Source: Strigamia acuminata (taxonomy: Eukaryota > Arthropoda > Chilopoda > Geophilomorpha > Linotaeniidae). Taken from it: 64,000 nucleotides of DNA. Location: NCBI GenBank assembly GCA_949358305.1, contig CASHSZ010000105.1:62001-126000 (forward strand), given 5' to 3'. The notes under the pieces are model-generated. The model was given only the letters and a program-made list of their open reading frames with translations, was not told the DNA's origin and made no database searches. The translations under genes were made by a program, and so were the position numbers. Positions 192 through 25,784 of this stretch are shown piece by piece (position 1 is the stretch's first letter; each line of letters opens with the position of its first letter).

Positions 192-290
192 CATTGGCTC
201 CCCGTCGAGGTTATTCCGCTTCTAACAACGTTTAGTGAAGTGCTTCGAGTGAAAAGTGCTCCGATTACGTCTTTAGTGCCTCGAGTGTTT

Positions 291-3200
291 ATGCGTGCTC
301 ATTATCGCCATTATCTCCGATTTTCCTCCGGAAAAATGCAGACAGCAAGAGCCAACTTGAATTGGAATCGGTACACGAAGGAAACATCGGCTTTTGCTAT
401 GGACAATCGTGGATGCAATCAATCCCGACCTCCTCGTCCGATTTCGCAGGTTCGCTGTTTTAATTGCGGCTTTTTCGGCCACTACGCGAATAAGTGCCCC
501 CGCCCTCGCAAACAGGGCAAGGAACCGCAACCGGTCGCGTCTCAACAAGGCCGACCCCGCAGTAAGAGCAAACGACGGCAGAATAACAGTTCGCAGCAAT
601 CCGGTGGTCAAAACCGTGATGTTTCTCGTCCCCGAAGGGACGCCGCTTACCTGTTGTCGGCTCCACCGGTGATCGAAGCTCCGGTTGTACATTTTCTCCA
701 GTCCCACGAATGGATTGTCGATTGTGGGGCCACCGACCACGTTTCGCACGTCAAAGCGTGGTTTACGAACTTTGTTTCCGTTGTCCCGTTCAACATCGAG
801 TTAGGCCAGGGCAGTTCGAGGGTCACAGGCAAAGGTGACGTTCCGGTCAAGTCGCTCATCGATGGCTGCGAATGCACCGTATTGCTCCGCGACGTATTAT
901 TCGCACCTGACTTCGGCGCCAATCTTATCTCGGTTTCTCGGATTGATAAATGCGGACATCACATCCACATTCACAACTCGGAATTGCATACGTATGAAAC
1001 GGACATCAAACTAAGTGTTCTTCGGGCGAAACAGAAGTCTGGACTTTATTTCGTGGATGGGCTCATCTCGCCATTCGCCGCTCCGACTAATGTTTCGAGT
1101 TCGTCTGTTTCATCATCACTTCCGACTCCGATACCGACCACTCTAGTGACGAAGGAAGAGGACTTTCCCGCATTGCCCAAGTCTTCCAACAAGACTAAGA
1201 AGAAGTCGGCTGACAATATGACCGATTTCCGCTTGCCCGTCTCCTCCAACACCTTGCTTGTCCCTTCACTTTTCCCTACCAGTCCTGCTCCTATTCCCGG
1301 ATCCCAACCTCAACAGATCCGGATGTATTCCAATGCCCTCGCATCTCCTCCTCCCGTTGCCAAGTCAAACGCAGCATTACCTCCCAAACCAGTTAATCCT
1401 TCGGTTGCCAACGTCGCAGACGCCACGGGATTGTGGCACGGCAGGCTGGGTCACCTGCATACGAAGGCCATGCGGACTTTAGCGGCTAACTCCCAGGTTT
1501 ATGGGCTTGATCCAGCTGCTGTTCGCCAGGAACTTTCCTGCAACACGTGCCGTGTTGCCAAGTCCACGCGTGCTCCACATAAGCCAATTTCCGCGCCTTC
1601 AACCACGAAACCGCTTGAATTGCTTCACATGGACGTCTGGGGCCCGTCGAGACTGCCTTCCATCGGCGGTGCTAATTTTGCCTTCACCATTATCGATGAC
1701 GCCACCAGGTACGCCTGGCTTTTCCCGATCGCCCGTAAATCCGATGTTTTTGCTACGTTTAAAGACTTTGTTTCCCGCGTTGAACGTATTGCTGATTGCC
1801 GGATTAAAACAATTCGCACCGACCGTGGAGGAGAATTTATTTCGAGGGATTTTGACCGTTTTCTTGCCGACAAGGGTATTGTTGCTCAACGGACCAATCC
1901 CGCATCGCCACAGATGAACGGTGTCGCCGAACGCCTGAACCGGACAATGGGCGACTATCTCCGCTCCATCAACTCCGAAACCGGATTTTCGCACACGCTT
2001 TGGGCTGAACTTGCCGTGACGTTCACATATATCAAAAACCGCAGTCCGCATTCGAAGCTCAACGACGAAATCCCATACATTTTGTGGCGCCAGCGTGCTC
2101 TTTCCGTCAGACATTTTCGTAAGATTGGTTCCAAGTGCTGGGTACACTTCACCGCACCTGGACGCAACAAACTGGATCCTCGAGCGTGGGAAGGATTTCT
2201 CGTTGGCTACGCTTCGGGAACTCGAGGGTATCGAGTGTGGAATCCGGCTACGAACACCGTCACCGAATCTGTTCACGTCCAAATCGATGAACGGCAGAAC
2301 TTTAAGCGCTCGCCCTTTTATGTTCCAGATCCGGATGACAATGCTCCACCCATGGAGGAGCCTGCTCGTGGCCACACCCCGTCACGTGTCACTTTTCGTG
2401 ATAACTTTCCAACTCAGCCTTGGCCTCGTCGACGTCACGATTCGGATAACGACTCTTCTGCTGACAGCAGTGACGAGGATGGTATTGCCAGTCGTGCTCC
2501 CTCCGTCGCTTCGAGTGCTCCGTCTTTCGCTTCATTCGCACCATCTCTTCCTACAGCTGATGGTCTCATCGCCGCTGCTGACGGCTTAGCTGCTACGACT
2601 GATGGCTCTGTTACCGACGCTGATGGCTCTGTTACCGTCGCTGATGGCTCCGATAATGTTACGACCATTGCAGGACATGGACAATTTACTCCGACCGTAC
2701 GTTCCACCCGCTTGCCTCATCTACGGCGTTCGATGTCCTACCCATCTCTCCCGGGTCTTGACGACACCGCAGCGATGTCTGAACAGGGTTCAGATTTTGA
2801 CGAAGACCTTCTCGACGAAGCGGCTGCCTTGCCTGTCCGACTTCCGGGTACGCCTAATTTGGCGCCTTTACGCGCTCTTCATTGCCCTTGGAGTTTTGTT
2901 GGCGGCGTTTCGCCCTTCAGCGGATGGAGGAGAGAAGAGCATCTCCGGAAAGATCAGGTTCCGGGGAGGATTAAAGTCGACGTTTATTATTATCCGGAGC
3001 ACGGTGTCCGCTTGCGGTCGCACACAGATATCGCCGCTTATTGTTTCGCACACCGGATACCGTATGATGAGTCCGTTTTCTTCTTCGGCAATTTAGAACA
3101 CCACATGCCATATGCTCCGCCATCGCCTCCTCGTGTCCACATGTGTTTTCGGGAACCGGCCACATACGCCGAAGCTGTGAAATTGCCCGAAGCACCGAAA

Positions 3201-4679
3201 TGGACCGAAGCAATCGACGAGGAACTTTCGACTTTCAAGCAACGAGACGTTTATAAGGAGGTTCCGAGACCCCCTGACAAGACTGTGCTCGGTTGCAAAT
3301 GGATTTTTAAGTTCAAAAGTGACATTACCGGAAAGATTACCCGATATCGTGCTCGACTGGTCGCCCAAGGATTTCGGCAGACAATGGGCGTTGACTACGA
3401 TGAAGTTTTTAGTCCCGTAGTCAATTTTGTCCTAATCCGTTTCTTCTTTTGTCTGCTGGTTATTCTCCTCGGATGGAGGGACACGCACCTCGACGTGAAA
3501 TGTGCCTACCTCTACGGCGACCTTGACCACGAGATTTATATGCGGATTCCCGCTGGTGCCACATGTTCCTCGCCCGACAACGTATGGTTGTTGACCAAGT
3601 CGCTTTACGGTCTTCACCAGTCGGGGCGCATGTGGTACCAGAAACTTAATGAAACATTGACAGAACTCGGATTTCAAAAGTTTCCAGCATGTAATTGTGT
3701 GTACGCCTACGGACATTCGGCCATTATGCTGGTATACGTCGACGATATTGTTTTATTTTATGCTTCGGAAAACATCAGGGATCGAATACTCAAGCTGATC
3801 ACGAGTAAATTCGACATTGTCGACCTGGGGCCAATCACCAAACTGCTGGGAGTCGAGTTCGAGCGTCGTGACGGGAAAGTCTTTATGACTCAACGCAATT
3901 ACATTGACAAACTCCTCAAAAAGTTTAATGTTTCATCTGACGCGCTCATCAAGGTGCCAGTCACACCTGGGACCACGTTAGTCAAGGGACCGCTCACCGA
4001 CCTTCCGGATTTTCCGTATCGATCACTCGTCGGATCTTTATTGTTCCTGGCTTCACGTACTCGCCCCGACATTTTGTACTCGGTGATCGCATTATCGCAG
4101 TACAACAACTGCTACACCGAGAGCCATATCAAGTGTTTGCTGCAGGTCCTTCGTTACGTCGCGAACACGAGCGAGTACGCCATCGAACTTTCGAAATGCG
4201 ATTCGAGTCAACTGTGGGGTTGCACAGACGCCTCTTGGGCCTCCGACATCGCTACATCGAGATCATTCGGCGGATACATTGTTTACATCGGAAGTGTGCC
4301 CATTGGCTGGAGCTGCAAGAAGCAGACCAGCGTCGCTTGCTCCACAATGGAAGCCGAATTTGTGGCACTTGTCGAAATCGTCAAAGAACTCTATTGGCTC
4401 GACAGTATTTATCAAGTGTTTCCACCTTTACGTCGGTTATCGAAACCGATCATATTTTCCGATGCCCTCGCCTCGATTCAGTTCACGAACAACGACATCG
4501 AGAACTCGAAAACGAAACATATTCGAGTGAAGTTTCACTGGCTTCGTGAGTGGCACATTGCCGGATGTTTCGAACTCCGCAAAATTCCGGGTGAGATAAA
4601 TGTATCCGACATTTTCACCAAGTGGCTCAGTTCAGAGCGTCTTCGAAATTTATTATCTCGGATTTTCGTCTCGAAGTAA
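291..4679 (+). CDS. copia-1 Pol polyprotein, Gag N-terminus missing
   Basis: One uninterrupted frame, open from 192; the first ATG is at 291. Residue numbers count from codon 240-242. A CCHC zinc knuckle (C73, C76, H81, C86) is followed by an aspartic protease with D161 in the unusual setting DCGA instead of DSGA or DTGA. Next come the pre-integrase HHCC region, an integrase with D, D and E (LHMD, IRTDRGG, NGVAERLN), an acidic Ser/Ala-rich linker, an MBD-like segment (about 894-945), reverse transcriptase with YVDD at 1166-1169, and RNase H (TDASWASD, MEAEF). The usual N-terminal Gag domain (UBN2 type), about 200 residues before the knuckle in copia-2, is absent; only about 70 residues precede it. 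The gene makes the enzymes for reverse transcription and integration, but without a capsid domain it probably depends on Gag from elsewhere, unless that part lies upstream in another frame outside the window. Confidence 0.88.
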   Translation: MRAHYRHYLRFSSGKMQTARANLNWNRYTKETSAFAMDNRGCNQSRPPRPISQVRCFNCGFFGHYANKCPRPRKQGKEPQPVASQQGRPRSKSKRRQNNSSQQSGGQNRDVSRPRRDAAYLLSAPPVIEAPVVHFLQSHEWIVDCGATDHVSHVKAWFTNFVSVVPFNIELGQGSSRVTGKGDVPVKSLIDGCECTVLLRDVLFAPDFGANLISVSRIDKCGHHIHIHNSELHTYETDIKLSVLRAKQKSGLYFVDGLISPFAAPTNVSSSSVSSSLPTPIPTTLVTKEEDFPALPKSSNKTKKKSADNMTDFRLPVSSNTLLVPSLFPTSPAPIPGSQPQQIRMYSNALASPPPVAKSNAALPPKPVNPSVANVADATGLWHGRLGHLHTKAMRTLAANSQVYGLDPAAVRQELSCNTCRVAKSTRAPHKPISAPSTTKPLELLHMDVWGPSRLPSIGGANFAFTIIDDATRYAWLFPIARKSDVFATFKDFVSRVERIADCRIKTIRTDRGGEFISRDFDRFLADKGIVAQRTNPASPQMNGVAERLNRTMGDYLRSINSETGFSHTLWAELAVTFTYIKNRSPHSKLNDEIPYILWRQRALSVRHFRKIGSKCWVHFTAPGRNKLDPRAWEGFLVGYASGTRGYRVWNPATNTVTESVHVQIDERQNFKRSPFYVPDPDDNAPPMEEPARGHTPSRVTFRDNFPTQPWPRRRHDSDNDSSADSSDEDGIASRAPSVASSAPSFASFAPSLPTADGLIAAADGLAATTDGSVTDADGSVTVADGSDNVTTIAGHGQFTPTVRSTRLPHLRRSMSYPSLPGLDDTAAMSEQGSDFDEDLLDEAAALPVRLPGTPNLAPLRALHCPWSFVGGVSPFSGWRREEHLRKDQVPGRIKVDVYYYPEHGVRLRSHTDIAAYCFAHRIPYDESVFFFGNLEHHMPYAPPSPPRVHMCFREPATYAEAVKLPEAPKWTEAIDEELSTFKQRDVYKEVPRPPDKTVLGCKWIFKFKSDITGKITRYRARLVAQGFRQTMGVDYDEVFSPVVNFVLIRFFFCLLVILLGWRDTHLDVKCAYLYGDLDHEIYMRIPAGATCSSPDNVWLLTKSLYGLHQSGRMWYQKLNETLTELGFQKFPACNCVYAYGHSAIMLVYVDDIVLFYASENIRDRILKLITSKFDIVDLGPITKLLGVEFERRDGKVFMTQRNYIDKLLKKFNVSSDALIKVPVTPGTTLVKGPLTDLPDFPYRSLVGSLLFLASRTRPDILYSVIALSQYNNCYTESHIKCLLQVLRYVANTSEYAIELSKCDSSQLWGCTDASWASDIATSRSFGGYIVYIGSVPIGWSCKKQTSVACSTMEAEFVALVEIVKELYWLDSIYQVFPPLRRLSKPIIFSDALASIQFTNNDIENSKTKHIRVKFHWLREWHIAGCFELRKIPGEINVSDIFTKWLSSERLRNLLSRIFVSK
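2553..2651 (+). repeat. 21-bp coding minisatellite in the copia-1 linker
   Basis: A 21-bp unit beginning GATGGCTCTGTTACCG is repeated at 2601 and 2622 with a partial third copy at 2643 and weaker copies upstream. It encodes an ADG-containing repeat in the acidic linker between integrase and the MBD-like segment. The period keeps the frame. Confidence 0.7.
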
Positions 4680-4727: not shown

Positions 4728-5280
4728 TGTTAGACTTTGGAACCACTTTTGAGTTATTTAAATCGTTTTTCGATGTGAAATGACTTTGAAATGTTTATTT
4801 TATTATCCATCGGTTATCTTTTCTTATTCGGGGTAATTTAGTATTGTTTCTTATGTTTTTCCTTAGTTTCTATGTAAAGGGAATGCATGATGCCTTTTAG
4901 ATGTGTCTTATCCATCTGGCATCATGCATCCTCTATTCTGTGTGTATTTCTACTTATTGTTTCTATTTTCGGCCACCAGATGTCTCTGGCACATTACAAA
5001 TGGCCGCTCACACGGGTAGTGTGTTTCCTTGTGTTTGTCCAGTGATTCTGGACCCATTATGTAAGTTTTCTCTTAATAAATGTTATATTTTTGGTTAACT
5101 ATTGTATTTAGTTCGGCACTACACGTTTCTATAAGTGTAGTGCACGCGAATTTGATCGTAAGTCCGCTCAAACTCGCGTACGCGCATCACGCGCATTTGT
5201 CCGCACTTAGAAGTGCGTTTGACTCAGTTTTACGCTTCCTATCGCCTATTTCGGCGATATTTTTGCGCCACACAGCTACA
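4728..5280 (+). repeat. copia-1 3' LTR, 553 bp
   Basis: It begins TGTTAGAC right after the polypurine tract and ends CAGCTACA exactly where satellite starts. An AATAAA signal is near 5075. It contains a 12-bp dyad ATGCATGATGCC/GGCATCATGCAT (4883-4894, 4918-4929) extended by AGATG/CATCT, and an 8-bp dyad CACTACAC/GTGTAGTG (5117-5124, 5135-5142). The right end is defined by the satellite junction, because the 5' LTR is not available for comparison. Confidence 0.75.
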
Positions 5281-5373
5281 GTTTTCGACCCGTTGCGGCC
5301 CGTTTTCGACCCGTTACGGTCCTTGGCCGTAACGGGCCGAAAACGGGAAAACTGAAAAAGTCGAGTGCGAGAC
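5281..5373. repeat. Start of satellite, partial lead-in to block B1
   Basis: The sequence TTTTCGACCCGTTGCGG and the following GAAAACGGG segment are the same as the lead-in before every other B block (for example before 14706 and 18363), but truncated on the left by copia-1. Confidence 0.85.
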
Positions 5374-8300
5374 CACGTGACCCGGAGTGTGGTTTTTGGG
5401 GACGAGGGCCGTCCTCCGACCGCGCCGTGACGCGCCGCGGGTCGGTCACCAACTTTTGTCAATTTTTGACAGATTTTCACGGAATTTCAGCGACATTTTA
5501 CGAGACGTTTCTGCCCGATGGGACGGACTTCTGTAAAACATTGCTTAAAATCCATGGAAATTTATCACATATTGACAAAATTCGGTGCAAGTTTTGTCAG
5601 AAATTAGGAAAAAACTTTTTTCAAAACTCGTCCAACGCGCCGGTAAATTGAGCGCCCACGTGCGTCGACAGTGGGCGCTTCAAAACCGCGTGGACACTGT
5701 CAGATCTCGGCACAGTTTGATGCGCCCAAATCTAGCAATACTTGCACCGACTTTTGGCAATTTGTGACAAATTTTCACAGAATTTCGGCAACATTTTACG
5801 ACACATTTCTGCCCGGTTGGACACATTTCCACAGGTTTTTTGTAAAACGTTGCTAAAATTCCGTTGAATTTCATCAAAAATTGTGTCAAAAGTCGGTGAC
5901 GGGCGGAGGGGCGAGCTCCGGGCGCCCGAGAGAGAGAGAGAAAGAGAGAGAGAGGGGACGGCCGGGGCTCCCGCCAACGGGCGGAGGGGCGAGCCTTGGC
6001 GGGTTGGGCGTGCACTATCTAGGCATGTGGGCGCTCGATTTACCGGCACGTTGGACAAGTTTTGAAAATTTTTTTTTCCTAATTTTTGACAAAATTAGCA
6101 CCGAATTTTGCCAATATTTGATAAATTTCCACGGAATTTTATCAATGTTTTACAAAAAACCCCTGGAAATGTGTCCAATCGAGCAGAAATGTCTCGTAAA
6201 ATATCGCTGAAATTTGTCTAAAATTGACAAAAAATCGGTGCAAGTTTTGCTAGATATTTGCCCGGATCAAACTGTGCCCGAAACCGCCCGATCTGACAGT
6301 GTGCACGCGGGCTGGACGTGCCCACTGTCCCCGCATGTGCACTCGCCGGCGCGTTGGACGAGTTTAAGAAGATTTTATCAATTTCTGACAAAACTTGCAT
6401 CGATTTTTTGTCAATATTTGATAAATTTCCCCAGAATTTTAGCAATAAAACCTTTGAAAATGTATCCAAAAGAGCAGAAATGTCCTGTAAAATATTGCTG
6501 AAAATCTGTTGAAATTCATCAAATATTGACAAAAATCTGTGACGAGCGGAGGGGCGATCCTTTGGCGGCCGAAAGAGAGAGGGGGGACGGTCGGGGCTCC
6601 CGCCGACGGGCGGAGGGGCGAGCCTTGGCGGCCGAGAGAGAGAGAGAGAGAGGACGGCCGGGGCTCCCGCCGGCGCACTGTCCACGCATGGGCGCGCTCG
6701 ATTTACTGGCGCGTTGGACGAATTTTAAATTTTTTGTTTCCTATTTCTGACAAAATTTGCACCGACTTTTGGCAATTTGTGACAAATTTTCACAGAATTT
6801 CGGCAACATTTTACGACACATTTCTGCCCGGTTGGACACATTTCCACAGGTTTTTTGTAAAACGTTGCTAAAATTCCGTTGAATTTCATCAAAAATTGTG
6901 TCAAAAGTCGGTGACGGGCGGAGGGGCGAGCTCCGGGCGCCCGAGAGAGAGAGAGAAAGAGAGAGAGAGGGGACGGCCGGGGCTCCCGCCAACGGGCGGA
7001 GGGGCGAGCCTTGGCGGGTTGGGCGTGCACTATCTAGGCATGTGGGCGCTCGATTTACCGGCACGTTGGACAAGTTTTGAAAATTTTTTTTTCCTAATTT
7101 TTGACAAAATTAGCACCGAATTTTGCCAATATTTGATAAATTTCCACGGAATTTTATCAATGTTTTACAAAAAACCCCTGGAAATGTGTCCAATCGAGCA
7201 GAAATGTCTCGTAAAATATCGCTGAAATTTGTCTAAAATTGACAAAAAATCGGTGCAAGTTTTGCTAGATATTTGCCCGGATCAAACTGTGCCCGAAACC
7301 GCCCGATCTGACAGTGTGCACGCGGGCTGGACGTGCCCACTGTCCCCGCATGTGCACTCGCCGGCGCGTTGGACGAGTTTAAGAAGATTTTATCAATTTC
7401 TGACAAAACTTGCATCGATTTTTTGTCAATTTTTGATAAATTTCCCCAGAATTTTAGCAATAAAACCTTTGAAAATGTATCCAAAAGAGCAGAAATGTCC
7501 TGTAAAATATTGCTGAAAATCTGTTGAAATTCATCAAATATTGACAAAAATCTGTGACGAGCGGAGGGGCGATCCTTTGGCGGCCGAAAGAGAGAGGGGG
7601 GACGGTCGGGGCTCCCGCCGACGGGCGGAGGGGCGAGCCTTGGCGGCCGAGAGAGAGAGAGAGAGAGGACGGCCGGGGCTCCCGCCGGCGCACTGTCCAC
7701 GCATGGGCGCGCTCGATTTACTGGCGCGTTGGACGAATTTTAAATTTTTTGTTTCCTATTTCTGACAAAATTTGCACCGACTTTTGGCAATTTGTGACAA
7801 ATTTTCACAGAATTTCGGCAACATTTTACGACACATTTCTGCCCGGTTGGACACATTTCCACAGGTTTTTTGTAAAACGTTGCTAAAATTCCGTTGAATT
7901 TCATCAAAAATTGTGTCAAAAGTCGGTGACGGGCGGAGGGGCGAGCTCCGGGCGCCCGAGAGAGAGAGAGAAAGAGAGAGAGAGGGGACGGCCGGGGCTC
8001 CCGCCAACGGGCGGAGGGGCGAGCCTTGGCGGGTTGGGCGTGCACTATCTAGGCATGTGGGCGCTCGATTTACCGGCACGTTGGACAAGTTTTGAAAATT
8101 TTTTTTTCCTAATTTTTGACAAAATTAGCACCGAATTTTGCCAATATTTGATAAATTTCCACGGAATTTTATCAATGTTTTACAAAAAACCCCTGGAAAT
8201 GTGTCCAATCGAGCAGAAATGTCTCGTAAAATATCGCTGAAATTTGTCTAAAATTGACAAAAAATCGGTGCAAGTTTTGCTAGATATTTGCCCGGATCAA

Positions 8301-10204
8301 ACTGTGCCCGAAACCGCCCGATCTGACAGTGTGCACGCGGGCTGGACGTGCCCACTGTCCCCGCATGTGCACTCGCCGGCGCGTTGGACGAGTTTAAGAA
8401 GATTTTATCAATTTCTGACAAAACTTGCATCGATTTTTTGTCAATTTTTGATAAATTTCCCCAGAATTTTAGCAATAAAACCTTTGAAAATGTATCCAAA
8501 AGAGCAGAAATGTCCTGTAAAATATTGCTGAAAATCTGTTGAAGTTCATCAAATATTGACAAAAATCTGTGACGAGCGGAGGGGCGATCCTTTGGCGGCC
8601 GAAAGAGAGAGGGGGGACGGTCGGGGCTCCCGCCGACGGGCGGAGGGGCGAGCCTTGGCGGCCGAGAGAGAGAGAGAGAGAGGACGGCCGGGGCTCCCGC
8701 CGGCGCACTGTCCACGCATGGGCGCGCTCGATTTACTGGCGCGTTGGACGAATTTTAAATTTTTTGTTTCCTATTTCTGACAAAATTTGCACCGACTTTT
8801 GGCAATTTGTGACAAATTTTCACAGAATTTCGGCAACATTTTACGACACATTTCTGCCCGGTTGGACACATTTCCACAGGTTTTTTGTAAAACGTTGCTA
8901 AAATTCCGTTGAATTTCATCAAAAATTGTGTCAAAAGTCGGTGACGGGCGGAGGGGCGAGCTCCGGGCGCCCGAGAGAGAGAGAGAAAGAGAGAGAGAGG
9001 GGACGGCCGGGGCTCCCGCCAACGGGCGGAGGGGCGAGCCTTGGCGGGTTGGGCGTGCACTATCTAGGCATGTGGGCGCTCGATTTACCGGCACGTTGGA
9101 CAAGTTTTGAAAATTTTTTTTTCCTAATTTTTGACAAAATTAGCACCGAATTTTGCCAATATTTGATAAATTTCCACGGAATTTTATCAATGTTTTACAA
9201 AAAACCCCTGGAAATGTGTCCAATCGAGCAGAAATGTCTCGTAAAATATCGCTGAAATTTGTCTAAAATTGACAAAAAATCGGTGCAAGTTTTGCTAGAT
9301 ATTTGCCCGGATCAAACTGTGCCCGAAACCGCCCGATCTGACAGTGTGCACGCGGGCTGGACGTGCCCACTGTCCCCGCATGTGCACTCGCCGGCGCGTT
9401 GGACGAGTTTAAGAAGATTTTATCAATTTCTGACAAAACTTGCATCGATTTTTTGTCAATTTTTGATAAATTTCCCCAGAATTTTAGCAATAAAACCTTT
9501 GAAAATGTATCCAAAAGAGCAGAAATGTCCTGTAAAATATTGCTGAAAATCTGTTGAAATTCATCAAATATTGACAAAAATCTGTGACGAGCGGAGGGGC
9601 GATCCTTTGGCGGCCGAAAGAGAGAGGGGGGACGGTCGGGGCTCCCGCCGACGGGCGGAGGGGCGAGCCTTGGCGGCCGAGAGAGAGAGAGAGAGAGGAC
9701 GGCCGGGGCTCCCGCCGGCGCACTGTCCATGGGCGCGCTCGATTTACTGGCGCGTTGGACGAATTTTAAATTTTTTGTTTCCTATTTCTGACTAAATTTG
9801 CACAGACTTTTGTCAATTTTTGACAAATTTTCACGGAATTTCAGCAATGGGACGGACTTATGTAAAACATCGCTTAAAATCTGGAAATCTGTCAAATCTT
9901 CTTTAAATTTATGCAAGATATTGGGAAATTTTGGTTTAACTCGTCCAACGGGCCGGTAAATCGAGCGCCCACACGCGCCCACATGCACGTCCAACCCGCA
10001 TGGGCACTGTCACATCGGACGTTTGTTGCGTGCAAAACTTGCACCGACTTTTGGCCATTTTTGGTTAAACTTTCGCACAATTTCTGCCCGATTGGACACT
10101 GAGGTTCGGTTTCCGACCGGGTCGTTTCTTGTCCGACCCGCGGCGCGTCGCGGCGCGGCCGGAGGACGGCCCTCGTCCCCAAAAACCACACTCCGAGTCA
10201 CGGG
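5374..10204. repeat. Satellite block B1 (4,831 bp, four 1,015-bp units)
   Basis: The block is closed by inverted arms of 72 bp at 5374-5445 and 10133-10204, with about 4 mismatches. Inside are 1,015-bp units at 5744, 6759, 7774 and 8789 (the last is 1,011 bp and ends at 9799). Each unit consists of three diverged monomers of about 300-365 bp. Every monomer has an AT-rich part with repeated TTTGTCAA/TTGACAAA motifs and a GC-rich part with a (GA)n tract. Frames in this region come from repeats and are not taken as genes. Confidence 0.92.
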
Positions 10205-10969
10205 TCGCACGGCCAACAGGCCGTGACGGGCCGTAGCGGGTCGAAAACGGGCCGTTAACGGCCCGTTGACGGCCCGTTAGCGGCCCGCATGAGGTCGCAC
10301 GGGCCGTCGGCGAGCCGAAGTCCGGGAACGAAGGCCGTTACGGGACCGTGACGGGACCGTCGGCGGCCCGTTAACGGCCCGTGCGAGCCGTTACGGGACC
10401 GTGACGGGACCGTCGGCGGCCCGTTAACGGCCCGTGCGGGCCGTTACGGGATCGTGACGGGACCGTCGGCGGCCCGTTAACGGCCCGTGCGGGCCGTTAC
10501 GGGATCGTAACGGGCCGTTAACGGGCCGTTAACGGGCCGTTAACGGGCCGTGACGGTGTAAATCGAAAAAATCAACAACCGACAACACGTACATGAAAAC
10601 GCGTACAACATTCATAGACATTAATCTCGAATCCTGTTTTTGGTTTTACGCCGTTAACGGGCCGTTAACGGCCCGCATGAGGTCGTACGGGCCGTTACGG
10701 GGTCGTGACGGGATCGTCGGCGGCCCGTTAACGGCCCGTGCGGGCCGTTACGGGATAGTTACGGAACCGTCGGCGGCCCGTTAACGGCCCGTGCGAGCCG
10801 TTACGGGATCGTGACGGGACCGTCGGCGGCCCGTTAACGGCCCGTGCGAGCCGTTACGGGATTGTGACGGGACCGTCGGCGGCCCGTTAACGGCCCGTGC
10901 GGGCCGTTTTCGACCCGTTGCGGCCGTTTTCGACCCGTTGCGGCCCGTTTTCGACCCGTTACGGTCCTT
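10205..10969. repeat. G array 1: CpG-rich 11-bp palindromic repeats with spacer
   Basis: Runs of GGGCCGTTAAC before, and of the reverse complement GTTAACGGCCC after, a conserved 87-bp spacer at 10561-10647. Longer relatives of about 60 bp with GGGATCGTGACGGGACCGTC fill the flanks. There are two CpG per 11-bp unit. No gene. Confidence 0.9.
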
Positions 10970-12285
10970 GGCCGTAACGGGCCGAAAACGGGAAAACTGA
11001 AAAAGTCGAGTGCGAGACCACGTGACCCGGAGTGTGGTTTTTGGGGGCGAGGGCCGTCCTCCGACCGCGCCGTGACGCGCCCCGAGTCGGATCAAGAGGC
11101 GACCCGGTCGGAAACCGAACCTCGGGGTTCCTCGAGGCGTGGTTTTTTGGGGACGGGGGGAGGGGGGGGGGGGGGGGATCGGGTCGCGTGCTCCGACCGC
11201 GCCGCAACGCGATGTGGGTCGGTCACCAACTTTTGTCAATTTTTGACAAATTTCCACGGAATTTCAGCAACATTTTACGAGACGTTTCTGCCCGACTAGA
11301 CACGTTTCCGCAGGTTTTAGCAAAACAACGTTAAATTCTGTGGAAATTTATCAAATGTTGACAAAATTCTGTGCAAGTTTTGTCAGATACTTACTTACTT
11401 ACGATATAACCTTCGGAAGCGAGTGCACCCGCAAAATCCGCACTTTGGGAGTGACTATTCCTCGGATTCCGGCCGGACCAAACTCTTCCGGAAAATGTCC
11501 GGGGGAATGCTGAGAGTGCCGATAGACGACATTCGATTTTATGTCGTGGATTTTTGTGCGGTTTGCGCCGTGTTTATTATTCGTACGAGATTTGGTATTT
11601 TCGCAGGGTTGTTGTCGCGCGAGATTCATCGGGGTAAAGCGAGTTCATCAACGACCTCGCCGGTGAATGTTGCTAAAAATCTGTGCAAGTGTTGTCAAAT
11701 ATTGCCGTGATTCGATGGAATTTTTGTCAGACATTGGGAAATTTTTTTTGACTTGTCCAACGCGCCAGTAAATCGAGCGTCCACACGCGCCCACATGCGT
11801 GAACAGTGCACTCGCCCTCCGCGCCCCGTCGGCGTAGGCGCCGGCCGTCCCCCCTTTCTCTCTCTCTCTCTCTCTTCCGCCCGGGAATCGCCCTTCCGCC
11901 CGTCACCGAATTTTGTCAATATCTGATAAATTTCCACAGAATTGCAGCGACATTGTACGGGATATTTCTGCCCGATTTGACGGACTTATGTAAAACATTG
12001 TTGAAATTCCGTGGAAATTTATAAAATATTGACAAAGGTTGGTGACCGACCCACGGCGCGTTGCGGCGCGGTCGGAGCACGCGACCCAATCCCCCCCTCC
12101 CCCCGTCCCCAAAAAACCACGCCCCGAGGAACCCCGAGGTTCGGTTTCCGACCGGGTCGCCTCTTGATCCGACCCGGGGCGCGTCACGGCGCGGTCGGAG
12201 GACGGCCCTCGCCCCCAAAAACCACACTCCGGGTCACGTGGTCTCGCACCCGACTCTCTCAGTTATCCCGTTACGGCCCTTGGCC
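10970..12285. repeat. F module 1: foldback with about 300-bp inverted arms
   Basis: The left arm (about 10970-11290) and right arm (about 11990-12285) are inverted copies, both containing the sequence around the 72-bp B-block arm plus a GGTTCCTCGAGG-type segment and AT-rich monomer sequence. The left arm has a long G run (11154-11177, broken by one A); the right arm has only short C runs (about 12086-12105). The interior includes a segment (11386-11700) not found in the B blocks and a (TC)n tract. Confidence 0.8.
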
Positions 12286-14705
12286 GTAACGGGCCGTTAC
12301 GGGATCGTGACGGGACCGTCGGCGGCCCGTTAACGGCCCGCACGGGCCGTGACGGGATCGTGACGGGACCGTTGGCGGCCCGTTAACGGCCCGCACGCGC
12401 CGTGACGGGACCGTGACGGGACCGTCGGCGGCCCGTTAACGGCCCGTACGACTCCATGCGGGCCGTTGACGGGCCGTTAACGGGCCGTTAACGGGCCGTT
12501 AACGGCGTAAATCGAAAAAATCAACAACCGACAACACGTACGTGAAAACGCGTACAACATTCATAGACATTAATCTCGAATCCTGTTTTTGGTTTTACGC
12601 CGTTAACGGGCCGTTAACGGGCCGTTAACGGCCCGTTAACGGCCCGTTAACGGCCCGCGTGAGGTCGTACGGGCCGTCGGCGAGCCGAAGTCCGGGAACG
12701 AAGGCCGTGACGGGATCGTGACGGGACTGTCGGCGGCCCGTTAACGGCCCGCACGCGCCGTGACGGGACCGTGACGGGACCGTCGGCGGCCCGTTAACGG
12801 CCCGTGCGGGCCGTTGCGGGATCGTGACGGGATCGTCGACGGCCCGTTAACGGCCCGTGCGGGCCGTTGCGGGCCGTTGACGGGCCGTTGACGGGCCGTT
12901 AACGGGCCGTTAACGGGCCGTTACGGCGTGAATCGAAAAAATCAACAACCGACAACACGTACATGAAAACGCGTACAACATTCATAGACATTAATCTCGA
13001 ATCCTGTTTTCGGTTTTGCCCCGTTAACGGGCCGTTAACGGGCCGTTAACGGGCCGTTAACGGCCCGTGCGGGCCGTTGCGGGATCGTGACGGGACCGTC
13101 GACGGCCCGTTAACGGCCCGTGCGGGCCGTTGCGGGATCGTGACGGGACCGTCAGCGGCCCGTTAACGGCCCGTGCGGGCCGTTGCGGGATCGTGACGGG
13201 ATCGTCGACGGCCCGTTAACGGCCCGTGCGGGCCGTTGCGGGATCGTGACGGGACCGTCAGCGGCCCGTTAACGGCCCGTGCGGGCCGTTGCGGGATCGT
13301 GACGGGATCGTCGACGGCCCGTTAACGGCCCGTGCGGGCCGTTGCGGGCCGTTGACGGGCCGTTGACGGGCCGTTAACGGGCCGTTAACGGGCCGTTACG
13401 GCGTGAATCGAAAAAATCAACAACCGACAACACGTACATGAAAACGCGTACAACATTCATAGACATTAATCTCGAATCCTGTTTTTGGTTTTACGCCGTT
13501 AACGGGCCGTTAACGGGCCGTTAACGGCCCGTTAACGGCCCGCGTGAGGTCGTACGGGCCGTCGGCGAGCCGAAGTCCGGGAACGAAGGCCGTGACGGGA
13601 TCGTGACGGGACCGTCAGCGGCCCGTTAACGGCCCGTGCGGGCCGTTGCGGGATCGTGACGGGATCGTCGACGGCCCGTTAACGGCCCGTGCGGGCCGTT
13701 GCGGGATCGTGACGGGACCGTCAGCGGCCCGTTAACGGCCCGTGCGGGCCGTTGCGGGATCGTGACGGGATCGTCGACGGCCCGTTAACGGCCCGTGCGG
13801 GCCGTTGCGGGCCGTTGACGGGCCGTTGACGGGCCGTTAACGGGCCGTTAACGGGCCGTTACGGCGTGAATCGAAAAAATCAACAACCGACAACACGTAC
13901 ATGAAAACGCGTACAACATTCATAGACATTAATCTCGAATCCTGTTTTTGGTTTTACGCCGTTAACGGGCCGTTAACGGGCCGTTAACGGCCCGTTAACG
14001 GCCCGCGTGAGGTCGTACGGGCCGTCGGCGAGCCGAAGTCCGGGAACGAAGGCCGTGACGGGATCGTGACGGGACCGTCAGCGGCCCGTTAACGGCCCGT
14101 GCGGGCCGTTGCGGGATCGTGACGGGATCGTCGACGGCCCGTTAACGGCCCGTGCGGGCCGTTGCGGGCCGTTGACGGGCCGTTGACGGGCCGTTAACGG
14201 GCCGTTAACGGGCCGTTACGGCGTAAATCGAAAAAATCAACAACCGACAACACGTACGTGAAAACGCGTACAACATTCATAGACATTAATCTCGAATCCT
14301 GTTTTTGGTTTTACGCCGTTAACGGGCCGTTAACGGCCCGTTAACGGCCCGTTAACGGCCCGCATGAGGTCGTACGGGCCGTTACGGGGTCGTGACGGGA
14401 CCGTCGGCGGCCCGTTAACGGCCCGTGCGGGCCGTTACGGGATAGTTACGGAACCGTCGGCGGCCCGTTAACGGCCCGTGCGAGCCGTTACGGGATCGTG
14501 ACGGGACCGTCGGCGGCCCGTTAACGGCCCGTGCGAGCCGTTACGGGATTGTGACGGGACCGTCGGCGGCCCGTTAACGGCCCGTGCGGGCCGTTTTCGA
14601 CCCGTTGCGGCCGTTTTCGACCCGTTGCGGCCCGTTTTCGACCCGTTACGGTCCTTGGCCGTAACGGGCCGAAAACGGGAAAACTGAAAAAGTCGAGTGC
14701 GAGAC
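12286..14705. repeat. G array 2: five spacers in CpG-rich repeats
   Basis: The 87-bp spacer recurs at 12510, 12931, 13406, 13869 and 14226, separated by GC arms of variable length (periods 357-478 bp). Spacer ends carry the dyad ACGGCGTAAA/TTTACGCCGT in several copies. One copy has GCCCC in place of TACGCC at its right end (about 13020). No gene. Confidence 0.9.
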
Positions 14706-17506
14706 CACGTGACCCGGAGTGTGGTTTTTGGGGACGAGGGCCGTCCTCCGACCGCGCCGTGACGCGCCGCGGGTCGGTCACCAACTTTTGTCAATTTTTG
14801 ACAGATTTTCACGGAATTTCAGCGACATTTTACGAGACGTTTCTGCCCGATGGGACGGACTTCTGTAAAACATTGCTTAAAATCCATGGAAATTTATCAC
14901 ATATTGACAAAATTCGGTGCAAGTTTTGTCAGAAATTAGGAAAAAACTTTTTTCAAAACTCGTCCAACGCGCCGGTAAATTGAGCGCCCACGTGCGTCGA
15001 CAGTGGGCGCTTCAAAACCGCGTGGACACTGTCAGATCTCGGCACAGTTTGATGCGCCCAAATCTAGCAATACTTGCACCGACTTTTGGCAATTTGTGAC
15101 AAATTTTCACAGAATTTCGGCAACATTTTACGACACATTTCTGCCCGGTTGGACACATTTCCACAGGTTTTTTGTAAAACGTTGCTAAAATTCCGTTGAA
15201 TTTCATCAAAAATTGTGTCAAAAGTCGGTGACGGGCGGAGGGGCGAGCTCCGGGCGCCCGAGAGAGAGAGAGAAAGAGAGAGAGAGGGGACGGCCGGGGC
15301 TCCCGCCAACGGGCGGAGGGGCGAGCCTTGGCGGGTTGGGCGTGCACTATCTAGGCATGTGGGCGCTCGATTTACCGGCACGTTGGACAAGTTTTGAAAA
15401 TTTTTTTTTCCTAATTTTTGACAAAATTAGCACCGAATTTTGCCAATATTTGATAAATTTCCACGGAATTTTATCAATGTTTTACAAAAAACCCCTGGAA
15501 ATGTGTCCAATCGAGCAGAAATGTCTCGTAAAATATCGCTGAAATTTGTCTAAAATTGACAAAAAATCGGTGCAAGTTTTGCTAGATATTTGCCCGGATC
15601 AAACTGTGCCCGAAACCGCCCGATCTGACAGTGTGCACGCGGGCTGGACGTGCCCACTGTCCCCGCATGTGCACTCGCCGGCGCGTTGGACGAGTTTAAG
15701 AAGATTTTATCAATTTCTGACAAAACTTGCATCGATTTTTTGTCAATTTTTGATAAATTTCCCCAGAATTTTAGCAATAAAACCTTTGAAAATGTATCCA
15801 AAAGAGCAGAAATGTCCTGTAAAATATTGCTGAAAATCTGTTGAAGTTCATCAAATATTGACAAAAATCTGTGACGAGCGGAGGGGCGATCCTTTGGCGG
15901 CCGAAAGAGAGAGGGGGGACGGTCGGGGCTCCCGCCGACGGGCGGAGGGGCGAGCCTTGGCGGCCGAGAGAGAGAGAGAGAGAGGACGGCCGGGGCTCCC
16001 GCCGGCGCACTGTCCACGCATGGGCGCGCTCGATTTACTGGCGCGTTGGACGAATTTTAAATTTTTTGTTTCCTATTTCTGACAAAATTTGCACCGACTT
16101 TTGGCAATTTGTGACAAATTTTCACAGAATTTCGGCAACATTTTACGACACATTTCTGCCCGGTTGGACACATTTCCACAGGTTTTTTGTAAAACGTTGC
16201 TAAAATTCCGTTGAATTTCATCAAAAATTGTGTCAAAAGTCGGTGACGGGCGGAGGGGCGAGCTCCGGGCGCCCGAGAGAGAGAGAGAAAGAGAGAGAGA
16301 GGGGACGGCCGGGGCTCCCGCCAACGGGCGGAGGGGCGAGCCTTGGCGGGTTGGGCGTGCACTATCTAGGCATGTGGGCGCTCGATTTACCGGCACGTTG
16401 GACAAGTTTTGAAAATTTTTTTTTCCTAATTTTTGACAAAATTAGCACCGAATTTTGCCAATATTTGATAAATTTCCACGGAATTTTATCAATGTTTTAC
16501 AAAAAACCCCTGGAAATGTGTCCAATCGAGCAGAAATGTCTCGTAAAATATCGCTGAAATTTGTCTAAAATTGACAAAAAATCGGTGCAAGTTTTGCTAG
16601 ATATTTGCCCGGATCAAACTGTGCCCGAAACCGCCCGATCTGACAGTGTGCACGCGGGCTGGACGTGCCCACTGTCCCCGCATGTGCACTCGCCGGCGCG
16701 TTGGACGAGTTTAAGAAGATTTTATCAATTTCTGACAAAACTTGCATCGATTTTTTGTCAATTTTTGATAAATTTCCCCAGAATTTTAGCAATAAAACCT
16801 TTGAAAATGTATCCAAAAGAGCAGAAATGTCCTGTAAAATATTGCTGAAAATCTGTTGAAATTCATCAAATATTGACAAAAATCTGTGACGAGCGGAGGG
16901 GCGATCCTTTGGCGGCCGAAAGAGAGAGGGGGGACGGTCGGGGCTCCCGCCGACGGGCGGAGGGGCGAGCCTTGGCGGCCGAGAGAGAGAGAGAGAGAGG
17001 ACGGCCGGGGCTCCCGCCGGCGCACTGTCCATGGGCGCGCTCGATTTACTGGCGCGTTGGACGAATTTTAAATTTTTTGTTTCCTATTTCTGACTAAATT
17101 TGCACAGACTTTTGTCAATTTTTGACAAATTTTCACGGAATTTCAGCAATGGGACGGACTTATGTAAAACATCGCTTAAAATCTGGAAATCTGTCAAATC
17201 TTCTTTAAATTTATGCAAGATATTGGGAAATTTTGGTTTAACTCGTCCAACGGGCCGGTAAATCGAGCGCCCACACGCGCCCACATGCACGTCCAACCCG
17301 CATGGGCACTGTCACATCGGACGTTTGTTGCGTGCAAAACTTGCACCGACTTTTGGCCATTTTTGGTTAAACTTTCGCACAATTTCTGCCCGATTGGACA
17401 CTGAGGTTCGGTTTCCGACCGGGTCGTTTCTTGTCCGACCCGCGGCGCGTCGCGGCGCGGCCGGAGGACGGCCCTCGTCCCCAAAAACCACACTCCGAGT
17501 CACGGG
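14706..17506. repeat. Satellite block B2 (2,801 bp, two units)
   Basis: Same architecture as B1: arms at 14706-14777 and 17435-17506, units at 15076-16090 and 16091-17101. Confidence 0.92.
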
Positions 17507-18362
17507 TCGCACGGCCAACAGGCCGTGACGGGCCGTAGCGGGTCGAAAACGGGCCGTTAACGGCCCGTTGACGGCCCGTTAGCGGCCCGCATGAGGTCGC
17601 ACGGGCCGTCGGCGAGCCGAAGTCCGGGAACGAAGGCCGTTACGGGACCGTGACGGGACCGTCGGCGGCCCGTTAACGGCCCGTGCGAGCCGTTACGGGA
17701 CCGTGACGGGACCGTCGGCGGCCCGTTAACGGCCCGTGCGGGCCGTTACGGGATCGTGACGGGACCGTCGGCGGCCCGTTAACGGCCCGTGCGGGCCGTT
17801 ACGGGATCGTAACGGGCCGTTAACGGGCCGTTAACGGGCCGTTAACGGGCCGTGACGGTGTAAATCGAAAAAATCAACAACCGACAACACGTACATGAAA
17901 ACGCGTACAACATTCATAGACATTAATCTCGAATCCTGTTTTTGGTTTTACGCCGTTAACGGGCCGTTAACGGCCCGTTAACGGCCCGTTAACGGCCCGC
18001 ATGAGGTCGTACGGGCCGTTACGGGGTCGTGACGGGATCGTCGGCGGCCCGTTAACGGCCCGTGCGGGCCGTTACGGGATAGTTACGGAACCGTCGGCGG
18101 CCCGTTAACGGCCCGTGCGAGCCGTTACGGGATCGTGACGGGACCGTCGGCGGCCCGTTAACGGCCCGTGCGAGCCGTTACGGGATTGTGACGGGACCGT
18201 CGGCGGCCCGTTAACGGCCCGTGCGGGCCGTTTTCGACCCGTTGCGGCCGTTTTCGACCCGTTGCGGCCGTTTTCGACCCGTTGCGGCCCGTTTTCGACC
18301 CGTTACGGTCCTTGGCCGTAACGGGCCGAAAACGGGAAAACTGAAAAAGTCGAGTGCGAGAC
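17507..18362. repeat. G array 3
   Basis: 856 bp of CpG-rich palindromic repeats with one spacer at 17863-17949. No gene. Confidence 0.9.
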
Positions 18363-21300
18363 CACGTGACCCGGAGTGTGGTTTTTGGGGACGAGGGCCG
18401 TCCTCCGACCGCGCCGTGACGCGCCGCGGGTCGGTCACCAACTTTTGTCAATTTTTGACAGATTTTCACGGAATTTCAGCGACATTTTACGAGACGTTTC
18501 TGCCCGATGGGACGGACTTCTGTAAAACATTGCTTAAAATCCATGGAAATTTATCACATATTGACAAAATTCGGTGCAAGTTTTGTCAGAAATTAGGAAA
18601 AAACTTTTTTCAAAACTCGTCCAACGCGCCGGTAAATTGAGCGCCCACGTGCGTCGACAGTGGGCGCTTCAAAACCGCGTGGACACTGTCAGATCTCGGC
18701 ACAGTTTGATGCGCCCAAATCTAGCAATACTTGCACCGACTTTTGGCAATTTGTGACAAATTTTCACAGAATTTCGGCAACATTTTACGACACATTTCTG
18801 CCCGGTTGGACACATTTCCACAGGTTTTTTGTAAAACGTTGCTAAAATTCCGTTGAATTTCATCAAAAATTGTGTCAAAAGTCGGTGACGGGCGGAGGGG
18901 CGAGCTCCGGGCGCCCGAGAGAGAGAGAGAAAGAGAGAGAGAGGGGACGGCCGGGGCTCCCGCCAACGGGCGGAGGGGCGAGCCTTGGCGGGTTGGGCGT
19001 GCACTATCTAGGCATGTGGGCGCTCGATTTACCGGCACGTTGGACAAGTTTTGAAAATTTTTTTTTCCTAATTTTTGACAAAATTAGCACCGAATTTTGC
19101 CAATATTTGATAAATTTCCACGGAATTTTATCAATGTTTTACAAAAAACCCCTGGAAATGTGTCCAATCGAGCAGAAATGTCTCGTAAAATATCGCTGAA
19201 ATTTGTCTAAAATTGACAAAAAATCGGTGCAAGTTTTGCTAGATATTTGCCCGGATCAAACTGTGCCCGAAACCGCCCGATCTGACAGTGTGCACGCGGG
19301 CTGGACGTGCCCACTGTCCCCGCATGTGCACTCGCCGGCGCGTTGGACGAGTTTAAGAAGATTTTATCAATTTCTGACAAAACTTGCATCGATTTTTTGT
19401 CAATTTTTGATAAATTTCCCCAGAATTTTAGCAATAAAACCTTTGAAAATGTATCCAAAAGAGCAGAAATGTCCTGTAAAATATTGCTGAAAATCTGTTG
19501 AAATTCATCAAATATTGACAAAAATCTGTGACGAGCGGAGGGGCGATCCTTTGGCGGCCGAAAGAGAGAGGGGGGACGGTCGGGGCTCCCGCCGACGGGC
19601 GGAGGGGCGAGCCTTGGCGGCCGAGAGAGAGAGAGAGAGAGGACGGCCGGGGCTCCCGCCGGCGCACTGTCCACGCATGGGCGCGCTCGATTTACTGGCG
19701 CGTTGGACGAATTTTAAATTTTTTGTTTCCTATTTCTGACAAAATTTGCACCGACTTTTGGCAATTTGTGACAAATTTTCACAGAATTTCGGCAACATTT
19801 TACGACACATTTCTGCCCGGTTGGACACATTTCCACAGGTTTTTTGTAAAACGTTGCTAAAATTCCGTTGAATTTCATCAAAAATTGTGTCAAAAGTCGG
19901 TGACGGGCGGAGGGGCGAGCTCCGGGCGCCCGAGAGAGAGAGAGAAAGAGAGAGAGAGGGGACGGCCGGGGCTCCCGCCAACGGGCGGAGGGGCGAGCCT
20001 TGGCGGGTTGGGCGTGCACTATCTAGGCATGTGGGCGCTCGATTTACCGGCACGTTGGACAAGTTTTGAAAATTTTTTTTTCCTAATTTTTGACAAAATT
20101 AGCACCGAATTTTGCCAATATTTGATAAATTTCCACGGAATTTTATCAATGTTTTACAAAAAACCCCTGGAAATGTGTCCAATCGAGCAGAAATGTCTCG
20201 TAAAATATCGCTGAAATTTGTCTAAAATTGACAAAAAATCGGTGCAAGTTTTGCTAGATATTTGCCCGGATCAAACTGTGCCCGAAACCGCCCGATCTGA
20301 CAGTGTGCACGCGGGCTGGACGTGCCCACTGTCCCCGCATGTGCACTCGCCGGCGCGTTGGACGAGTTTAAGAAGATTTTATCAATTTCTGACAAAACTT
20401 GCATCGATTTTTTGTCAATTTTTGATAAATTTCCCCAGAATTTTAGCAATAAAACCTTTGAAAATGTATCCAAAAGAGCAGAAATGTCCTGTAAAATATT
20501 GCTGAAAATCTGTTGAAGTTCATCAAATATTGACAAAAATCTGTGACGAGCGGAGGGGCGATCCTTTGGCGGCCGAAAGAGAGAGGGGGGACGGTCGGGG
20601 CTCCCGCCGACGGGCGGAGGGGCGAGCCTTGGCGGCCGAGAGAGAGAGAGAGAGAGGACGGCCGGGGCTCCCGCCGGCGCACTGTCCACGCATGGGCGCG
20701 CTCGATTTACTGGCGCGTTGGACGAATTTTAAATTTTTTGTTTCCTATTTCTGACAAAATTTGCACCGACTTTTGGCAATTTGTGACAAATTTTCACAGA
20801 ATTTCGGCAACATTTTACGACACATTTCTGCCCGGTTGGACACATTTCCACAGGTTTTTTGTAAAACGTTGCTAAAATTCCGTTGAATTTCATCAAAAAT
20901 TGTGTCAAAAGTCGGTGACGGGCGGAGGGGCGAGCTCCGGGCGCCCGAGAGAGAGAGAGAAAGAGAGAGAGAGGGGACGGCCGGGGCTCCCGCCAACGGG
21001 CGGAGGGGCGAGCCTTGGCGGGTTGGGCGTGCACTATCTAGGCATGTGGGCGCTCGATTTACCGGCACGTTGGACAAGTTTTGAAAATTTTTTTTTCCTA
21101 ATTTTTGACAAAATTAGCACCGAATTTTGCCAATATTTGATAAATTTCCACGGAATTTTATCAATGTTTTACAAAAAACCCCTGGAAATGTGTCCAATCG
21201 AGCAGAAATGTCTCGTAAAATATCGCTGAAATTTGTCTAAAATTGACAAAAAATCGGTGCAAGTTTTGCTAGATATTTGCCCGGATCAAACTGTGCCCGA

Positions 21301-22178
21301 AACCGCCCGATCTGACAGTGTGCACGCGGGCTGGACGTGCCCACTGTCCCCGCATGTGCACTCGCCGGCGCGTTGGACGAGTTTAAGAAGATTTTATCAA
21401 TTTCTGACAAAACTTGCATCGATTTTTTGTCAATTTTTGATAAATTTCCCCAGAATTTTAGCAATAAAACCTTTGAAAATGTATCCAAAAGAGCAGAAAT
21501 GTCCTGTAAAATATTGCTGAAAATCTGTTGAAATTCATCAAATATTGACAAAAATCTGTGACGAGCGGAGGGGCGATCCTTTGGCGGCCGAAAGAGAGAG
21601 GGGGGACGGTCGGGGCTCCCGCCGACGGGCGGAGGGGCGAGCCTTGGCGGCCGAGAGAGAGAGAGAGAGAGGACGGCCGGGGCTCCCGCCGGCGCACTGT
21701 CCATGGGCGCGCTCGATTTACTGGCGCGTTGGACGAATTTTAAATTTTTTGTTTCCTATTTCTGACTAAATTTGCACAGACTTTTGTCAATTTTTGACAA
21801 ATTTTCACGGAATTTCAGCAATGGGACGGACTTATGTAAAACATCGCTTAAAATCTGGAAATCTGTCAAATCTTCTTTAAATTTATGCAAGATATTGGGA
21901 AATTTTGGTTTAACTCGTCCAACGGGCCGGTAAATCGAGCGCCCACACGCGCCCACATGCACGTCCAACCCGCATGGGCACTGTCACATCGGACGTTTGT
22001 TGCGTGCAAAACTTGCACCGACTTTTGGCCATTTTTGGTTAAACTTTCGCACAATTTCTGCCCGATTGGACACTGAGGTTCGGTTTCCGACCGGGTCGTT
22101 TCTTGTCCGACCCGCGGCGCGTCGCGGCGCGGCCGGAGGACGGCCCTCGTCCCCAAAAACCACACTCCGAGTCACGGG
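18363..22178. repeat. Satellite block B3 (3,816 bp, three units)
   Basis: Arms at 18363-18434 and 22107-22178; units at 18733, 19748 and 20763-21773. From about 18731 it repeats 6757 onward at an offset of 11,974 bp. Confidence 0.92.
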
Positions 22179-22943
22179 TCGCACGGCCAACAGGCCGTGA
22201 CGGGCCGTAGCGGGTCGAAAACGGGCCGTTAACGGCCCGTTGACGGCCCGTTAGCGGCCCGCATGAGGTCGCACGGGCCGTCGGCGAGCCGAAGTCCGGG
22301 AACGAAGGCCGTTACGGGACCGTGACGGGACCGTCGGCGGCCCGTTAACGGCCCGTGCGAGCCGTTACGGGACCGTGACGGGACCGTCGGCGGCCCGTTA
22401 ACGGCCCGTGCGGGCCGTTACGGGATCGTGACGGGACCGTCGGCGGCCCGTTAACGGCCCGTGCGGGCCGTTACGGGATCGTAACGGGCCGTTAACGGGC
22501 CGTTAACGGGCCGTTAACGGGCCGTGACGGTGTAAATCGAAAAAATCAACAACCGACAACACGTACATGAAAACGCGTACAACATTCATAGACATTAATC
22601 TCGAATCCTGTTTTTGGTTTTACGCCGTTAACGGGCCGTTAACGGCCCGCATGAGGTCGTACGGGCCGTTACGGGGTCGTGACGGGATCGTCGGCGGCCC
22701 GTTAACGGCCCGTGCGGGCCGTTACGGGATAGTTACGGAACCGTCGGCGGCCCGTTAACGGCCCGTGCGAGCCGTTACGGGATCGTGACGGGACCGTCGG
22801 CGGCCCGTTAACGGCCCGTGCGAGCCGTTACGGGATTGTGACGGGACCGTCGGCGGCCCGTTAACGGCCCGTGCGGGCCGTTTTCGACCCGTTGCGGCCG
22901 TTTTCGACCCGTTGCGGCCCGTTTTCGACCCGTTACGGTCCTT
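22179..22943. repeat. G array 4
   Basis: Near-identical copy of G array 1 at an offset of 11,974 bp, with the spacer at 22535-22621. Confidence 0.9.
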
Positions 22944-24259
22944 GGCCGTAACGGGCCGAAAACGGGAAAACTGAAAAAGTCGAGTGCGAGACCACGTGAC
23001 CCGGAGTGTGGTTTTTGGGGGCGAGGGCCGTCCTCCGACCGCGCCGTGACGCGCCCCGAGTCGGATCAAGAGGCGACCCGGTCGGAAACCGAACCTCGGG
23101 GTTCCTCGAGGCGTGGTTTTTTGGGGACGGGGGGAGGGGGGGGGGGGGGGGATCGGGTCGCGTGCTCCGACCGCGCCGCAACGCGATGTGGGTCGGTCAC
23201 CAACTTTTGTCAATTTTTGACAAATTTCCACGGAATTTCAGCAACATTTTACGAGACGTTTCTGCCCGACTAGACACGTTTCCGCAGGTTTTAGCAAAAC
23301 AACGTTAAATTCTGTGGAAATTTATCAAATGTTGACAAAATTCTGTGCAAGTTTTGTCAGATACTTACTTACTTACGATATAACCTTCGGAAGCGAGTGC
23401 ACCCGCAAAATCCGCACTTTGGGAGTGACTATTCCTCGGATTCCGGCCGGACCAAACTCTTCCGGAAAATGTCCGGGGGAATGCTGAGAGTGCCGATAGA
23501 CGACATTCGATTTTATGTCGTGGATTTTTGTGCGGTTTGCGCCGTGTTTATTATTCGTACGAGATTTGGTATTTTCGCAGGGTTGTTGTCGCGCGAGATT
23601 CATCGGGGTAAAGCGAGTTCATCAACGACCTCGCCGGTGAATGTTGCTAAAAATCTGTGCAAGTGTTGTCAAATATTGCCGTGATTCGATGGAATTTTTG
23701 TCAGACATTGGGAAATTTTTTTTGACTTGTCCAACGCGCCAGTAAATCGAGCGTCCACACGCGCCCACATGCGTGAACAGTGCACTCGCCCTCCGCGCCC
23801 CGTCGGCGTAGGCGCCGGCCGTCCCCCCTTTCTCTCTCTCTCTCTCTCTTCCGCCCGGGAATCGCCCTTCCGCCCGTCACCGAATTTTGTCAATATCTGA
23901 TAAATTTCCACAGAATTGCAGCGACATTGTACGGGATATTTCTGCCCGATTTGACGGACTTATGTAAAACATTGTTGAAATTCCGTGGAAATTTATAAAA
24001 TATTGACAAAGGTTGGTGACCGACCCACGGCGCGTTGCGGCGCGGTCGGAGCACGCGACCCAATCCCCCCCTCCCCCCGTCCCCAAAAAACCACGCCCCG
24101 AGGAACCCCGAGGTTCGGTTTCCGACCGGGTCGCCTCTTGATCCGACCCGGGGCGCGTCACGGCGCGGTCGGAGGACGGCCCTCGCCCCCAAAAACCACA
24201 CTCCGGGTCACGTGGTCTCGCACCCGACTCTCTCAGTTATCCCGTTACGGCCCTTGGCC
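22944..24259. repeat. F module 2: second copy of the foldback
   Basis: Copy of F module 1 at an offset of 11,974 bp, including the G run (about 23128-23151) and the interior segment (23360-23674). Confidence 0.8.
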
Positions 24260-25365: not shown

Positions 25366-25686
25366 GCCGTTACGGCGTGAATCGAAAAAATCAACAACCG
25401 ACAACACGTACATGAAAACGCGTACAACATTCATAGACATTATGTAGCTAAGTGTTAGTGTATGTGTTTGGCCAATGCGAGTGATCGCAATGTTTGTTTA
25501 CATACAGTGTCTGTATGCTGCCTACAGGTGGCGCTGATTGCATTGAGGTCATGTGACCAATCAATAAAGATCACTTGATGTTTTGGTTCTCACCTGTTAA
25601 CATGTTGTGTGTTTCTTTCACCTGATGCATTTTTCCAATCCACTACATTTGTCACTATTAGCAGAAGTTAGCAACACTATTCAACA
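25366..25686 (+). repeat. copia-2 5' LTR, first 77 bp replaced by satellite
   Basis: Only 25443-25686 (TGTAGCTA to TTCAACA) matches the 3' LTR, over 244 bp without mismatch. The expected first 77 bp (25366-25442) are instead uninterrupted satellite. This removes the TATA-like tract that the 3' LTR has at 31028-31038. AATAAA is present in the retained part. Confidence 0.8.
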
Positions 25687-25687
25687 A

Positions 25688-25698: not shown

Positions 25699-25784
25699 AC
25701 AAACAACGTGGGAAAAACAGGCAGAGTGAAGAGAAACATTTCAAGTCAACCACAGGTGAAAAAGTGGGCGTTTCTCCTCAAAAT

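Follow-up and report, generated by a model that had tools for sequence, protein, structure and literature searches.

The window, a stretch of 64,000 nucleotides of the Strigamia acuminata genome, holds an LTR retrotransposon, copia-1, with a methyl-CpG-binding domain (MBD) inside its Pol, between integrase and reverse transcriptase. We interpret copia-1 as a young multi-copy S. acuminata element of the CopiaMBD type with a captured MBD that would dock on methylated DNA, and we give this reading a probability of about 0.8. In the mechanism that we propose, the MBD captured into Pol would still be joined to integrase and could thereby bring the preintegration complex to DNA that is both CpG-dense and methylated, such as satellites and older repeats. 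New copies would then be inserted away from genes, in repeats resembling heterochromatin.

The MBD of copia-1

The MBD covers about residues 894-955 of the copia-1 Pol (2919..3104, plus strand), as indicated by Pfam, phmmer against PDB, the modelled fold and the contact residues. The original prediction had recognized an MBD-like segment at this place from its motifs, and the coordinates fit: GWRREEHLRK begins at residue 895 (base 2922) and DVYY at residue 914 (base 2979), between integrase/SH3 and RVT_2. The C-terminal F-x-F-like stretch, examined by eye, runs past 3090, to about 3104. The Pfam profile PF01429 matched residues 895-939 significantly, with 22.9 bits (E 6.5e-5) on the whole ORF and 29.2 bits (E 7.3e-7) on an excised piece of 68 aa, both above the curated cut-off of 21. 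MBD2 chains were the closest by sequence in the PDB (phmmer, E 0.0014), and the Smith-Waterman score of 77 against a 41-residue MBD2 fragment was reached by 0 of 2000 shuffles. A single-sequence AlphaFold model of the domain, of low overall pLDDT (51), showed strands and helix in the MBD order; Foldseek ranked MBD structures at positions 1-27 and the first unrelated chain at 28. The predicted fold resembles that of known MBDs, and an MBD alpha/beta fold is likely for copia-1. Neither of the two outcomes named in the original prediction as refuting it, lack of a significant profile match and a predicted fold unlike the MBD sandwich, was observed.

Counterparts of methyl-CpG contacts had been proposed at R903, D914, Y916 and R926. 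All of them are present at these positions, together with K912, and we take these residues to be mCpG contacts from their roles in MBD2/MeCP2 structures. Compared with an MBD2-type animal MBD, the copia-1 domain shares the predicted fold, the Trp, both Arg fingers, Lys, Asp and Tyr, but differs by an L1 loop longer by one residue and by being embedded in Pol. The copia-1 domain is a real, functional-looking MBD, for which methyl-CpG binding is predicted.

The copia-1 Element and Its Relatives in the Genome

The copia-1 Pol ORF (240..4679, plus strand) starts with GTG at 240 and encodes 1479 aa. Along it, Pfam found a weak zinc knuckle, the protease-side beta barrel (Pol_BBD), integrase, SH3, the MBD and RVT_2, which marks the RT/RNase H part. 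The 3′ LTR (4728..5280, plus strand) is 553 bp long and of the TG..CA type; the window does not include the 5′ LTR. Among 20 fetched stretches of 9.9 kb (10 of 34 copia-1-type copies and 10 sister-family copies), 553-bp LTRs were observed at one or both ends. Target duplications of 5 bp were exact in 15 of the 15 copies assessable, which excludes L026, L027, L040, L044 and L045. The layout of copia-1 is that of the CopiaMBD type, with the Copia order of Pol domains and an MBD inside Pol, between LTRs.

The genome searched comprised 237,517,015 bases in 157 contigs and is slightly different from the published assembly qcStrAcum1.1, given as 237,534,282 bases in 158 scaffolds, with N50 19,347,077, N90 9,836,499 and a longest scaffold of 66,985,994 bases (PMC10556566). 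When it was searched with the MBD profile, all 150 matches scored out of 1092 candidates were above the cut-off, and many of them lay in Pol-sized frames of about 1540-1630 aa; the same search gave a match in 0 of 14 control genomes. In the fetched pieces, Pfam detected an MBD followed by RVT_2 in L004, L005, L006 and L009, and an MBD alone in the short piece L002. RT-like sequence after the MBD was also seen by eye in L002, L003, L007 and L008, the shown stretches of which contain stops. With the copia-1 MBD as query (150 scored of 1242 candidates), at least 34 places, window included, were identical over 77 aa, and further groups appeared at about 91, 74 and 64-67% identity. The MBD is present in several copia families of S. 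acuminata.

The sister family, with 91% MBD identity, possesses a copia-type gag (L036, Pfam Retrotran_gag_2, E 3.7e-27). When this gag was sought in one copia-1-type copy, L030, nothing better than E 0.34 was obtained, and the leader of this copy between 5′ LTR and Pol (L030:916-1784; in the window, 1-240 precedes Pol) has stops in all three forward frames. The copia-1 family may therefore borrow its Gag, and it is possibly mobilised with Gag in trans, despite the number of places that carry an identical MBD.

Insertion in CpG-Dense DNA

Both copias of the window are inserted in one repeat array, a CpG-dense tandem-repeat region (5281..25442) that continues from 31298 to about 48240. The flanks of further insertions were sampled over 250 bp beyond the 3′ LTR in 39 hand-picked copies, namely 29 of the 34 identical copia-1-type copies and 10 of the sister family (L053, all N, was dropped). 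The median CpG density of these flanks was 76 per kb. It was 50 in 20 stretches placed at random on the 11 chromosomes, with C9 at a guessed length, and 30 in 20 stretches lying 1.4 kb past BEL Pol ends, hand-picked among 150 matches for their long frames (Mann-Whitney, p 0.0027 vs random and 0.0005 vs BEL). When the 32 chromosome copies only were considered, the median was 72 (p 0.012 vs random, 0.002 vs BEL), and flanks at 700-950 bp, in 20 copies, gave a median of 68 (p 0.03 and 0.003, respectively). BEL and random stretches, 20 each, showed no difference in CpG density (p 0.27). Also, the satellite of the window was found at 8 of the 39 MBD-copia copies, at 0 of 20 random places and at 1 of 20 BEL places (8/39 vs 1/40, Fisher p 0.014). 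The sampled insertions are biased toward CpG-dense DNA, as expected for an integration-targeting reader.

These flanks bear on the idea, put forward in the original prediction, that the MBD targets integration. The CpG-rich insertion flanks speak for it. On the other side, CpG o/e is above 1 in both copia-1 and the array, so that the sequence bears no mark of long-standing methylation. A reader or targeting function of the copia-1 MBD is plausible. In S. maritima, a fraction of 0.758 of 719 annotated TEs was placed in the highly methylated group (PMC7343188).

The insertion bias might instead result from purging of copies from gene-rich DNA, without MBD targeting, an explanation that we find possible but doubtful. 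Surviving copies alone are visible, and by hand count 19 of 150 copia-1-type, 16 of 150 best-Pfam and 10 of 150 copia-2-type places lie off the 11 chromosomes, vs 5 of 150 for BEL (Fisher p 0.005, 0.02 and 0.29, the last not significant). Nevertheless, the sampled BEL neighbourhoods face the same purge, yet they are not CpG-dense. Furthermore, purging had little time to act, as the sampled Pol copies of copia-1 share 98.7 to 100% identity with the protein of the window.

The Diverged MBD-Like Segment of copia-2

The second copia of the window, copia-2, has a 5′ LTR of 244 bp (25443..25686), identical to its 3′ LTR (31054..31297), and a Gag-Pol ORF of 1505 aa (26433..30950), all on the plus strand. 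This ORF contains a diverged version of the MBD (29103..29282, plus strand) that the original prediction had overlooked. The segment retains the Trp, the first Arg, the Asp and the second Arg, with Tyr replaced by Glu, Lys replaced by Gln and a shorter L1 loop. The cut-off of PF01429 was not reached: the whole ORF showed no MBD match with an E-value limit of 1, nor did two pieces with a limit of 10, and the segment gave no BLASTP match to the MBD2 fragment and no PDB match. Its kinship to MBDs is drawn from its resemblance to the copia-1 MBD, from a weak MBD fold match and from a local alignment to MBD2 that beats 2000 of 2000 shuffles. Similar segments occur in at least 150 places, at 82-100% identity (150 scored of 395 candidates), and 147 of the 150 scored have no stop inside, while 3 have one. 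We tentatively suggest that copia-2 bears an MBD-like fold that persists even though two methyl-CpG contacts, Tyr and Lys, and a portion of the DNA-contacting loop are gone. It is conceivable, albeit speculative, that in this lineage a captured methylation reader was re-purposed for another DNA or protein target.

The fate of this segment is relevant to a further explanation, which we regard as unlikely, namely that the domain, although of MBD fold, recognises CpG density or unmethylated CpG, or simply grips DNA, instead of reading 5-methylcytosine. Targeting would in that case be to CpG-dense repeats whatever their methylation. Such a reading would agree with the excess, rather than shortage, of CpG in copia-1 and the array, and with the abundance and mostly open frames of a copia-2 segment devoid of the Tyr and Lys. 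MBD3 is among the MBD-fold proteins that read mCpG poorly, which also counts in its favour. However, all canonical contacts tested are kept in copia-1, among them the Tyr, which contacts methyl-CpG in known MBDs. Moreover, the title of a published study (de Mendoza, Pflueger and Lister, 2019, Genome Res 29:1277) describes the MBD of an arthropod retrotransposon as functionally active in methyl-CpG binding.

Selection on the MBD

Between L030 and L042, which represent the copia-1 type and the sister family, omega was 0.088 in the MBD (65 codons) and 0.192 in the linker that leads from integrase/SH3 to the MBD (2322..2891, plus strand), which evolves faster in this one family pair. The values were 0.053 for IN, 0.042 for RT-RH and 0.671 for the 19-codon spacer after the MBD. 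The copia-1 MBD is kept by purifying selection in this pair of families. An MBD that persists as a passive remnant without role in integration would suit its location in the variable integrase-RT region, but is highly improbable given its omega, lower than that of the preceding linker in this one pair, and the occurrence of the domain in several families.

Comparison with Known Systems

The original prediction knew of no MBD as a standard part of copia Pol; the capture of an MBD by an arthropod retrotransposon family has nevertheless been published (de Mendoza et al., 2019). Copia-1 too is an arthropod retrotransposon with a methyl-CpG-binding domain. The published elements are reportedly Copia elements, named CopiaMBD, of Strigamia maritima and of the spider Stegodyphus dumicola, and are said to insert in CpG-dense DNA in Strigamia; by this description, copia-1 shares with them the host genus and the type of insertion site. 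Because such a capture was already published, reportedly from the same genus, the copia-1 MBD is not the first of its kind. The name CopiaMBD did not occur in the part of the literature searched. Relative to the published elements, as known by description, the differences are the host, here S. acuminata, the copia-1 copy examined being without recognisable gag, and the diverged MBD of the copia-2 family, which lacks the Tyr contact.

Chromoviruses, which are Ty3/gypsy elements whose integrase carries a C-terminal chromodomain (PMC3605345), likewise join a chromatin reader to integrase; their reader domain and superfamily are different, and the copia-1 reader is located between IN and RT. Retrotransposons of dinoflagellates and charophytes carry a DNMT (PMC5890265). 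They also captured a component of cytosine methylation, but theirs is a writer, while copia-1 has a reader.

Our data display the strategy of placing an MBD in copia across several families of a Strigamia genome assembled to chromosome scale, most of the families sampled having kept the methyl-CpG contacts and one having altered them. As families with intact and diverged MBDs coexist in one genome, the targeting hypothesis can be tested by comparing their insertion maps.

Other Features of the Window

In the tandem-repeat region (5281 to about 48240), ORFs are spaced by 1015 bp and units of 53/463 bp are found; its repeated minus-strand ORFs of 155 aa are probably not genes. Two further elements adjoin the array, one gypsy-like (49158-52393) and one of the BEL/Pao type (57218-61353), and neither is contained in a single ORF. 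At 62666-63359, direct duplications, one of 182 bp and the other of 86 bp, overlap a minus-strand ORF of 409 aa, for which no Pfam match was obtained.

Copia-2 is flanked by an exact direct duplication of 82 bp of satellite (25361-25442 and 31298-31379), which is not a 5-bp target duplication. Once one 82-bp copy is removed, the flanking sequence is 100% identical to array units found elsewhere. Alternatively, the duplication may have arisen by array rearrangement after the insertion of copia-2. Directly after the copia-2 5′ LTR, at 25687-25705, stands GGTTATGGGCC, a sequence that resembles the primer site for initiator tRNA in Drosophila copia.
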